A stretch of DNA of 30,667 nucleotides from a virus, in the IMG/VR virus record IMGVR_UViG_3300034082_000159, positions 1 through 30,667 of that record; one strand, given 5' to 3'. The notes below the pieces were generated by a model. The model was not told where the DNA came from. It searched no databases and saw only the letters and a list, made by a program, of their open reading frames with translations. The position numbers were made by a program, and so were the translations under genes. The first letter of the stretch is position 1. Each line of letters opens with the position of its first letter. This document shows, one piece after another, positions 4,922 through 30,667 of this stretch.

Positions 4922-5125
4922 TTAAAATAGGTTGTTTAAATTATTCATTGTTTCATCATAATTTAATACATCTTTTACTTCTTGTTCGTACGTATCAGAA
5001 TTATTAAATTCAGTTCTTAATGCTTCTGTAATTTCTTCTAATTCGTGTTTTACATAAGTGTTTTCTACTTCTGCCATTAACCAAGTAATGTTTTCTAATC
5101 GTTCAATAATTTCTTGCTTTGTCAT
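4922..5125 (-). CDS. Small helical protein, first gene of an operon (67 aa)
   Basis: It begins MTKQEIIERLENITWLMAEV and is acidic and helical throughout. I do not recognise it. It is the first gene after a terminator and a candidate promoter, so it likely heads the operon that runs through the nucleases to the terminase genes. The leader between box and ATG carries the A-rich element AATTAAAAACAAA seen at other operon starts. Confidence 0.68.
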   Translation of the reverse strand: MTKQEIIERLENITWLMAEVENTYVKHELEEITEALRTEFNNSDTYEQEVKDVLNYDETMNNLNNLF

Positions 5126-5211: not shown

Positions 5212-5243
5212 AAAAAAAAAGCTACCTTTTATTAGATAGCTTT
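5212..5243 (-). terminator. Intrinsic terminator
   Basis: The minus-strand transcript folds AAAGCUAUC (5243-5235) against GGUAGCUUU (5226-5218) with an 8-base loop and one G-U pair, followed by a run of nine U. It ends the operon whose last frame is the 44-aa gene at 5222-5356, whose stop codon lies within the hairpin. Confidence 0.85.
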
Positions 5244-5356
5244 TGAGTTATAATTTTTCTATAGACTTCATTAACGGATTCTTTATTGTTTCCACGTTTC
5301 CAAAGAAAATCCATTATTCTATTTATTCTTTGCAGGGGTGATTGTTTACTTTTCAT
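5222..5356 (-). CDS. Small basic protein at an operon end (44 aa)
   Basis: The frame MKSKQSPLQRINRIMDFLWK continues with RGNNKESVNEVYRKIITQKL and ends SNKR. It is rich in Lys and Arg and could bind nucleic acid. It starts with an 11-base overlap with the preceding gene and stops inside the terminator hairpin. It is not a sequence I recognise, and could be chance, but without it the 100 bases between the gene and the hairpin would be empty. Confidence 0.5.
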   Translation of the reverse strand: MKSKQSPLQRINRIMDFLWKRGNNKESVNEVYRKIITQKLSNKR

Positions 5357-27971: not shown

Positions 27972-28420
27972 TTTGTCATTTTGTTTTCAATAGCAATATC
28001 AAAAGTAAATGTAACACCTGCTATTTTGTTTTCAAATCTTTCAGTAAAAAATTCAATGTTTGCAGTACCATTAACCAGTTCATAATCTTCTGCTAATGCA
28101 CCCCTATTTAATACTTCTAAAAATCTATTTGCTACAGCTAATTGTGTGTTTAATACATCCTGTTCATTATCGTTACCCAAAAATATATCTGTAACTTTTG
28201 ATTTACTTTCATCTACAATATCCATACATAAAATAGATATATTATAATTTAATACAGGACCCTGATACGATACTGAATTAACTATAATATGACTTAATGG
28301 AAATATAGTTTGCTTATTTAAATCTACTTTAAATATATCACCTGTAGTTACTGTATTTACAAATATATCTTCTTGTAACTTATTCTTTATTACTTGTGTT
28401 ATTTCGTAAAATGTGCTCAT
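27965..28420 (-). CDS. Tail terminator/completion-like protein
   Basis: A 151-aa protein: MSTFYEITQVIKNKLQEDIF, FPLSHIIVNSVSYQGPVLNY, ISILCMDIVDESKSKVTDI, then LAVANRFLEVLNRG and VTFTFDIAIEN. The helix, four-strand, helix, two-strand order is that of the lambda gpU/SPP1 gp17 tail-terminator fold. Its ATG overlaps the stop of the frameshift product of the preceding gene (TAATG), strong evidence that this product is real. Confidence 0.7.
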   Translation of the reverse strand: MSTFYEITQVIKNKLQEDIFVNTVTTGDIFKVDLNKQTIFPLSHIIVNSVSYQGPVLNYNISILCMDIVDESKSKVTDIFLGNDNEQDVLNTQLAVANRFLEVLNRGALAEDYELVNGTANIEFFTERFENKIAGVTFTFDIAIENKMTKC

Positions 28421-29165
28421 TATCTTTTTTTAATTAAATCCGATTCTATTTTGTTTTTTTGTTTTTCAAATGTTAGGTATGTTAAACACTGGTTAATTGG
28501 TAATTCTGTGATTGTGTCAAATCTTGTAATATCTCCTTGAGCAAGTCCATAGATTGAACTATACCAACCCCATCGTTTTCCGAATTGTGCTGTTGCAGAA
28601 TAGTCTGCATCTGCGTGTTGTTCTCCAAATAGTTCATCGTACTTTTCAATAATTCGTTGCCTAAATTGTAAAAAAAAACATTAGCACCAAATACAACATC
28701 TAAAGGTGCGTGTTTCATTACATCACTATACGTTATACTACCATTGTATTTTTCTATTTCGTATGTATTATTTAAACCCTTCTTTGTAATTGGTCTAAAT
28801 AAAACAGCCATAGCTTTGTGCATATTATCCCAATCACCAATGTATGAATCTAAATCTGTATATTCACCAAAAGTCATATCATCCAAATCAGGAATAAAAC
28901 CAAATTCAACTCCACCAAGTTTAAATCTGTTTATAAACCTATGTGATTTAACATCAAACATTTTACCAAGTGATGCAGTTATTTGTAACACATCCTTATA
29001 TTTAATTTCAGCTACATCTTTTAAATCTATATTGCAGAACGTTTGAACCATTTTCTGATTCATAAATTCAACATCATCATTATCTTTAGCTATCTTTAAG
29101 AACGCTTGGTATTGTGATAACTTAATTTCATTTAATTCTGTTGGTACGCTAATTTCTAATTTCAT
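28420..29165 (-). CDS. Tail assembly chaperone, -1 frameshift product (248 aa)
   Basis: Ribosomes slipping back one base in the T9 run (28678-28670) would join residues 1-165 of the 0 frame to an 83-aa segment starting LQFRQRIIEKYDELFGEQHA, continuing FGKRWGWYSSIYGLAQGD and ending ESDLIKKR. That frame has no ATG, begins right after a stop at 28683-28681, uses the A/T-ending codons typical of the genome, and stops exactly on the next gene's start (TAATG). The paired short and long products resemble lambda G and GT, which coat the tape measure before tube assembly. A sequencing error in the homopolymer would instead make this the only product. Confidence 0.75.
28482..29165 (-). CDS. Tail assembly chaperone, 0-frame product (227 aa)
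   Basis: Starting at MKLEISVPTELNEIKLSQYQ (ATG at 29165; an ATG at 29225 lies beyond a terminator and is rejected), this protein has MVQTFCNIDLKDVAEIKYKD, FGFIPDLDDMTFGEYTDLDS and DNMHKAMAVLFRPITKKG. Past the slippery site it continues YNLGNELLKSTMNYLENN to a stop at 28482. It probably binds the tape measure protein during tail assembly. The last 62 codons share their DNA with the -1 frame and have unusually many G-ending codons, as expected of dual coding or of a non-functional frame. Confidence 0.72.
   Translation of the reverse strand: MKLEISVPTELNEIKLSQYQAFLKIAKDNDDVEFMNQKMVQTFCNIDLKDVAEIKYKDVLQITASLGKMFDVKSHRFINRFKLGGVEFGFIPDLDDMTFGEYTDLDSYIGDWDNMHKAMAVLFRPITKKGLNNTYEIEKYNGSITYSDVMKHAPLDVVFGANVFFYNLGNELLKSTMNYLENNTQMQTILQQHNSENDGVGIVQSMDLLKEILQDLTQSQNYQLTSV
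28670..28678 (-). promoter_or_regulatory. Slippery run (U9) for -1 frameshifting
   Basis: The minus strand reads GTTTTTTTTTAC; the 0-frame codons are GTT TTT TTT TAC. This contains the heptamer U UUU UUU, on which P- and A-site tRNAs can re-pair one base back and continue TTA CAA TTT. RNA polymerase slippage adding one U would give the same frame. Confidence 0.7.
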
Positions 29166-29523: not shown

Positions 29524-29547
29524 ACATAAATTAGTTTTAACAATTAT

Positions 29548-29697
29548 TTAACTTTTCAAATGTTCCGATGCTATTAAGTACATCTTTTGCATTTTCTTAA
29601 TTTCACCTATATTACGTGGTAGGTTTATATTCACTTCTTTACCTGTAGTGTGATGAATATAACATTGTATTGTGGCTATCATTTGTCCGTATGTCAT
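29548..29697 (-). CDS. 49-aa gene, second allele
   Basis: Starts MTYGQMIATIQCYIHHTTGK; differs from the copy at 3-152 by one residue and three silent changes. It is followed downstream by the promoter and 68-aa gene, which shows what lies beyond the left edge of the window if the genome is circular. Confidence 0.75.
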   Translation of the reverse strand: MTYGQMIATIQCYIHHTTGKEVNINLPRNIGEIKKMQKMYLIASEHLKS

Positions 29698-29734
29698 AGT
29701 TAAAAAAAGTCAAGTTTTTTCCATCATTTACTTT

Positions 29735-29761
29735 GTCGCAAGTATAGTATTAATTTGCGAC
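29735..29761 (-). promoter_or_regulatory. Palindrome between terL and 49-aa gene, second allele
   Basis: Arms GTCGCAA (29735-29741) and TTGCGAC (29755-29761), the counterpart of 189-215. The arms are kept although nearby bases have changed; the -7 box here is TATACTTG, one mismatch from the consensus. Confidence 0.4.
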
Positions 29762-29762
29762 A

Positions 29763-30667
29763 TTAATATATAAAATAGTTTCCTTTGTTAGAATTACCTA
29801 ATTGATATGTAACAGCGTAACGCAATGGGTCAAGTAAATGGTTGTGGGCATCCTGTGGCGTTTTTGACTTTTTTTCTAACCAACAGTAATTGTTTAATTC
29901 CCTAATTAAGTTTATTGAATCAGGCGATACTATTAAATCATAATCTTGCAATACACTAATACCATAAGTAACAGAATCAGGCCCTTTAATTGCAGGAACT
30001 ATATTTAAACCTAATGTAGCTAATTCAGATATTAATCTTGGTTCAGCACTATCTGCAACTATTAAAGCATCGTTTGCGTGTTGCTTGTTTAATTGATATA
30101 TCTGACTTGTTGTTAAACCTTTTAAATAAAACCTTTCATTAATATAAATTCGTTTGTTAGAACTATCTATATTACATTCTAATAAAGTTGATTCATCTGA
30201 AGCAAAACCATAATCTTGGCCAAAGATAGATTTACCTATTTGTTTATATTCTCCTATAGTCCAATTAGTAAATATAACTCCTTCTGCTTTATCTAACCAA
30301 CCACCTAATATTTGATGCTTATACTTTTCAGGTCTGCGTTGTTTTATATTCTCAATTTGATTTATAAATGATTCAGATAGGTTTTCTATATTATCTTGGT
30401 ACGTTGTATGTATGTATGTAGTATCACCTTTAATTAAATTGCTTCCTGCTTCAACACCTTTATCTTCAAAGAATTTCTTATATATAAAGTGTTCTTTTGT
30501 TGCAGGATTTAATATTAATAAAATTCTATTATGTATTCCTTTAGTACGAATACTTAAATCTATTTTATCAAATATATCTTCATCTGTTAGTTCTTCTGCC
30601 TCATCTAAAACGAATGTTGTAACACCTGCTAAAGATTTTAAAGAAGCTGTTTGTGTACCACTACTTG
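29763..30667 (-). CDS. terL: Terminase large subunit, divergent partial copy (C-terminal 300 aa)
   Basis: The frame is open from the stop at 29763 to the window edge and aligns gaplessly to residues 103-402 of the complete TerL. Walker B and all three nuclease acids are kept (GQDYGF, ADSAEP, HLLDPLRY). About 31 of 151 residues differ in the nuclease domain, while the ATPase part is almost identical in DNA. So this is a functional allele, not a decayed copy; it is partial only because the window ends. Confidence 0.92.
   Translation of the reverse strand, partial: SSGTQTASLKSLAGVTTFVLDEAEELTDEDIFDKIDLSIRTKGIHNRILLILNPATKEHFIYKKFFEDKGVEAGSNLIKGDTTYIHTTYQDNIENLSESFINQIENIKQRRPEKYKHQILGGWLDKAEGVIFTNWTIGEYKQIGKSIFGQDYGFASDESTLLECNIDSSNKRIYINERFYLKGLTTSQIYQLNKQHANDALIVADSAEPRLISELATLGLNIVPAIKGPDSVTYGISVLQDYDLIVSPDSINLIRELNNYCWLEKKSKTPQDAHNHLLDPLRYAVTYQLGNSNKGNYFIY

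Follow-up and report, generated by a model that had tools for sequence, protein, structure and literature searches.

What does an uninterrupted run of nine T's (T9) do in a phage gene when two different reading frames remain open downstream of it? The question is raised by one gene on the - strand of the window, by which we mean the whole 30,667-nucleotide stretch of viral DNA that was analyzed; a sequence-only reading had taken this gene for a tail assembly chaperone gene with a probable programmed -1 frameshift, comparable to lambda G/GT. The frames are as that reading described them (0 frame open for 62 codons after the run, to 28482; -1 frame open for 83 codons, without any ATG in the window, ending as TAATG), and the stop that it had noted just 5′ of the run (28683-28681) is a -1-frame TAA, so that in this genome -1 entry must happen at the run (Table 1). 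Specifically, i) the site reads GTT TTT TTT TAC in the 0 frame and, one base back, TTT TTT TTA CAA, the open -1 frame beginning with TTA at 28671-28669; ii) the first 165 residues of the gene are common to both products, and the slipped product would have 248 residues in all with a predicted junction ...VFFLQFR; iii) the TAA that closes the -1 frame (28422-28420) contributes its last A as the first base of the next gene's ATG; and iv) the dual-coded length is 186 nt (about 190 bases), the two C-termini being exemplified by the peptides WGWYSSIYGLAQGDITR in the -1 frame and EILQDLTQSQNYQLTSV in the 0 frame. A second T9 on the - strand, at 5212-5220 of the window, lies between one ORF that ends at 5346 and another whose start is at 5125, and is apparently intergenic.

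Table 1. Features of the slippage gene and its neighborhood, in window coordinates
Feature	Position	Strand	Remarks
0-frame product, 227 aa	28482..29165	-	ATG 29165, stop 28484-28482; homologues keep the whole frame
Candidate slippage site T9	28670..28678	-	G 28679 before, AC after; invariant in relatives
-1-frame domain, 83 codons TTA..CGA/AGA plus TAA 28422-28420	28420..28671	-	predicted in slipped product only
Dual-coding stretch, 62 codons of 0-frame tail over -1 domain	28485..28670	-	selection on both frames
-1-frame stop TAA directly 5′ of run	28681..28683	-	5′ bound of shift site in this genome
Next gene, 151 aa	27965..28420	-	ATG 28420 overlaps -1-frame stop as TAATG; synteny
Tape measure candidate, 635 aa	22006..23913	-	weak phrog_1538 match; coiled-coil and hydrophobic segments

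Viral relatives were sought with the -1 domain and with the 0-frame product; hundreds were found with each query, and the 80 best matches per query were retained. In 153/153 of the closer loci (many of the loci compared are kin to one another) the run is T9 and its phase is unchanged, and the 0-frame tail is identical in length in 146 of these, stops nine codons earlier in five, and ends at a contig edge in two. A distant set, obtained by a search from the protein of Nonlabens phage P12024S and consisting of loci 25-57% identical to that protein plus two near-identical ones, has at least nine T's in the same phase in 58/58 loci; the run is T10 in one (L183) because the preceding codon is TTT, leaving the phase unchanged, and the cultured phage P12024S has T9 too. 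The collection was also scanned with a pattern that accepted TTC in either Phe codon and any base upstream; the run, free at the tested positions, was T9 in all of at least 120 loci. The sampling patterns favor relatives with a conserved F-F-Y-x-L-G-N motif. The Tyr codon after the run becomes Cys or Trp in relatives, yet its first base is always T, and in a match from a bacterial genome, probably a prophage, the site is CTT TTT TTT TGG, with Trp in place of Tyr and the T retained. This conservation supports the programmed -1 frameshift proposed from the window alone, and comparison of the sequences makes it very likely that slippage on T9 gives two products with alternative C-termini.

Across relatives the -1 frame encodes a conserved helical domain of 80-93 residues, and the 0-frame tail, 62 codons in the window, varies elsewhere from 16 to 90. 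In two loci (L250:10122-10882 and L280:798-1564) the 0-frame tails of 88 and 90 codons face -1 domains of 91 and 93, the -1 domain thus being dual-coding over nearly its whole length; a genome match to the 0-frame profile (L357) has four in-frame stops and is possibly a decayed prophage.

Is the 0-frame tail then a coding sequence in its own right? When the -1 protein was kept and its codons were redrawn from the window's own usage, the 0 frame stayed open for at least 62 codons in 0.9% of trials, and the corresponding figure was 0-3% in five distant lineages with at least 55 codons after the run; openness was not unusual in L150 (8.6%) or in the short Nonlabens-type tails (22% and 4%). Among 40 representatives less than 95% identical, 0-frame third-position diversity falls from 0.352 in the upstream single-coded part to 0.175 in the overlap, and -1-frame third-position diversity is 0.184 in the overlap versus 0.237 after it. 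In a recoding test on 36 lineages less than 72% identical, each -1 frame was recoded synonymously with the 0 frame held open: cross-lineage identity of the 0 frame in the overlap is 0.395, compared with 0.260 ± 0.005 after recoding. The same comparison for the alternative frames of the single-coded N-terminus is essentially flat (0.244 versus 0.234, and 0.228 versus 0.219), indicating that common ancestry accounts for little of the 0-frame identity. The excess resides in an L-G-N-x-L patch right after the run and an L-K-E patch near the end. We conclude from these comparisons that the 0-frame tail is under selection of its own, beyond the constraint of the -1 protein. The roughly 200 shared dual-coding bases and differing C-termini of the sequence-only reading correspond to an overlap of 186 nt with selection on both frames, and the homologue alignments it had called for show that hundreds of relatives keep both frames beyond the run.

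These data also bear on three other accounts of the locus. Were only the -1 frame to matter after the run, the 0-frame tail would be a by-product and the 0-frame product a truncated chaperone; indeed, the -1 frame dictates certain 0-frame residues (G-x-G, columns 41 and 43, under W-G-W), and Nonlabens-type phages have a tail of no more than 16-25 codons, but the recoding test with its flat control leads us to reject this account, and the 0-frame-specific patches, together with a -1-frame third-position diversity that is lower inside the overlap than after it, likewise make it improbable. Two separate overlapping genes, the second with an internal start and no frameshift, are what the Nonlabens phage annotations describe; in 185/200 distinct sequences, however, the -1 frame lacks ATG, GTG, and TTG throughout its first 45 codons, for which reason we reject separate initiation, and with -1-frame conservation beginning exactly at the run and the invariance of T9 left unexplained, such an arrangement is very unlikely. 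Homopolymers are error-prone and the two frames lie edge to edge, as they might if sequencing or assembly had altered a true T10 (or T8) in one ordinary gene, or in a decayed one; but hundreds of independent assemblies, and cultured phages too, agree in the length and phase of the run, which together with selection on the 0-frame tail renders an error hardly credible, and the T10 single gene, which the sequence-only reading had named as its own potential refutation, is rejected by conservation of the run, none of the relatives having a run length that would join the frames.

Whether the RNA polymerase or the ribosome slips is less easily decided. The eighth T of the run closes the second Phe codon in the 0 frame and opens the Leu codon in the -1 frame, and T>C there would be silent in both proteins (TTT>TTC, TTA>CTA), yet this T is never C in 200 distinct sequences or in 36 diverse ones. 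Elsewhere in the same genes Phe is TTC in 25-30% of cases, and one nearly invariant Phe is TTC in 55/174; given each sequence's own usage and assuming independence, all 36 diverse sequences would have TTT at one and the same Phe codon with a probability of about 1e-7. Outside this gene, the coding sequences of these phages have about ten times fewer runs of T8 and longer than codon shuffles do, whichever of the three phases is considered, and no conserved local RNA structure was detected downstream of the run in 36 lineages (mean z -0.31 and -0.20). The run is uninterrupted and as long as transcriptional slippage calls for, which is roughly nine A's or T's or more; it is kept where neither protein needs it and is of a kind avoided elsewhere. 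In bacteria, runs of nine A or T are prone to slip, and nine is also the length at which slippage avoidance becomes evident in many bacterial genomes (PMC1088944; see also PMC5009743). Canonical ribosomal -1 frameshifting is nonetheless a reasonable if less probable explanation; as in P2-like phages, the ribosome would slip at a T TTT TTT within the run, and the remaining run would be incidental or fixed by the encoded residues. A perfect heptamer of the form X XXY YYZ is in 0-frame phase in all sequences, and it is the ribosome that has been described as shifting frame in tail chaperone genes, among others at the translational U-run sites T6G, T7G, and T7C of P2-like phages (PMC3931495); a stimulatory structure downstream is frequent at ribosomal sites but not required. 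An A-site preference for UUU could also fix the eighth T, and avoidance of long T runs could come from replication slippage. A heptamer T TTT TTZ, however, requires only six T's and any last base, and the actual run is longer and more rigid, extending to the T-initial codon that follows even where Tyr gives way to Cys or Trp. The invariance of a silent eighth T, the phase-independent avoidance of T8 and longer, and the want of conserved downstream structure together lead us to favor polymerase slippage as probable on the sequences compared. For the lambda-like -1 frameshift first suggested for this gene, the comparison supports the two products and refines the mechanism, slippage by the polymerase explaining the run at least as well as slippage by the ribosome. 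A single T that is silent in both proteins and yet invariant also provides a clean natural test between slippage of the polymerase and of the ribosome.

In the mechanism we propose, RNA polymerase would add one extra U at the run, U10 placing the message in the -1 frame, and slippage would yield two proteins sharing 165 N-terminal residues, the 227-residue 0-frame product and a 248-residue product carrying the -1 domain, the latter presumably made in only some rounds of expression. If the pair resembles lambda gpG/gpGT, the common part might hold on to the tape measure protein while the -1 domain recruits the tail tube protein, with the slip rate setting the product ratio. We advance only tentatively, as quite possible, the fuller reading that in a large phage group the two tail chaperones arise because the polymerase, and not the ribosome, slips on an invariant T9, that the C-terminal domain of the unslipped product is separately selected although encoded on top of that of the slipped one, and that the two products are alternative-ended partners, not a protein and its extension. 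The phages carrying the T9 gene are probably phages of Bacteroidota.

Translation of a transcript that had lost one T (U8) would terminate within four codons, as a stop lies no more than four codons on in 200/200 sequences (window 28658-28679 is an example); this could give a third, truncated product, and the encoded Y-x-L-G and F-R residues may force the early stop of the U8 frame.

What, then, is the gene? Profile searches with 37 diverse members returned phrog_32199, of unknown function, for 37/37, and no curated chaperone family above its cut-off; tail-related matches were weak, comprising PF10109 Phage_TAC_7 in 1/37 members (E 0.01) and phrog_166, a tail protein (best E 0.005). Pfam assigned no family to the gene; NCBIfam, queried with the -1 domain, gave no assignment and two weak matches that we take as chance. 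Against annotated phages, tblastn of the -1 domain found no match, and Nonlabens phages were the only matches to the 0-frame query. The two parts were modelled separately: AlphaFold is confident over most of residues 1-165 of the 0-frame product and poor over its tail, and the -1 domain model is helical. No structural match for the predicted models was found in the PDB, and BFVD matches were mostly uncharacterized viral proteins, a "tail assembly chaperone" label appearing at E 0.33 only. Several viral proteins in which one chain resembles the models of the two parts, 0-frame product and -1 domain alike (A0A516L611, A0A516L5A8, A0A6J5N0W0, and others), suggest in-frame fusions of the two parts in other phages. 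Low sequence similarity is usual among tail assembly chaperones.

Most relatives with long enough loci have the order terL, sometimes small genes, the slippage gene, genes for proteins of about 151, 176, 350, and 780 residues, and a tape measure candidate; L259 has one additional gene. In the window the 635-residue protein is the probable tape measure protein, and the slippage gene lies upstream of it on the same strand and in the same cluster, with four larger genes between. Chaperones of the lambda type bind the tape measure and tail tube proteins, do not occur in the virion, and are encoded between the genes for the major tail protein and the tape measure. On architecture and tail-cluster synteny, a tail assembly chaperone function is likely; the name given to the gene in the sequence-only reading can be kept to that extent, homology not having been found. 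As the gene does not adjoin the tape measure gene either, we prefer to say that it would work like G/GT, and not that it is a member of that family.

That tail chaperone genes shift frame in a programmed manner is textbook knowledge, mostly from ribosomal sites close to the 0-frame stop. In the training set that PRFect took from SEA-PHAGES, site and 0-frame stop are on average 26 nt apart (PMC10885494), and a phage morphogenesis gene with 186 nt of dual coding, both frames selected, contrasts with this usual short distance. Like lambda gpG/gpGT, a ribosomal -1 frameshift (PMC5009743), the present gene lies upstream of the tape measure candidate and would make two products that begin alike, the -1 frame being entered toward the 3′ end and the second product having an extra domain; unlike it, the unslipped product has its own selected 62-residue C-terminus over about 190 dual-coding bases, the site is T9, the tape measure gene is several genes away, and no sequence homology was found. 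Gene E/E′ of P2 and P2-like phages is likewise a tail assembly gene with a -1 shift on a T run and a -1 frame that ends at the next gene, but there the runs are of 6-7 with a variable next base and an overlap of 37 nt, as against nine invariant T's and 186 nt here (PMC3931495). Thermus dnaX (A9), IS elements, and the Shigella mxiE/spa genes share nine A or T within a coding region, conservation of both frames, and avoidance of such runs elsewhere (PMC1088944, PMC5009743); those are cellular or IS genes, whereas here slippage is predicted from sequence in a phage gene. The Nonlabens (Persicivirga) phages P12024S and P12024L carry the homologous gene directly after terL (genes 38/39 and 40/41), with T9 and the same -1 domain but a 0-frame tail of about 25 codons, and their records list two hypothetical genes with no frameshift annotated. 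For annotators, the T9 gene is a missed fusion gene in hundreds of contigs.

Two further observations concern a distant fold match and the ends of the window. The fold match is Flavobacterium phage 6H gp10 (L358:10352-10927), whose gene precedes an annotated tape measure gene; its last residues are CFFYSTR, encoded at T6C, and another open frame comes next. We dropped it as supporting evidence, as slipping into the -1 frame there would allow only one more codon before a stop. Positions 1-832 and 29546-30378 of the window form a repeat of 80-97% identity, 29.5 kb apart, and terL is found at both window ends (217-1425 and 29763-30665); the genome is probably circular or permuted, of about 29.5 kb, with window ends from two related strains.
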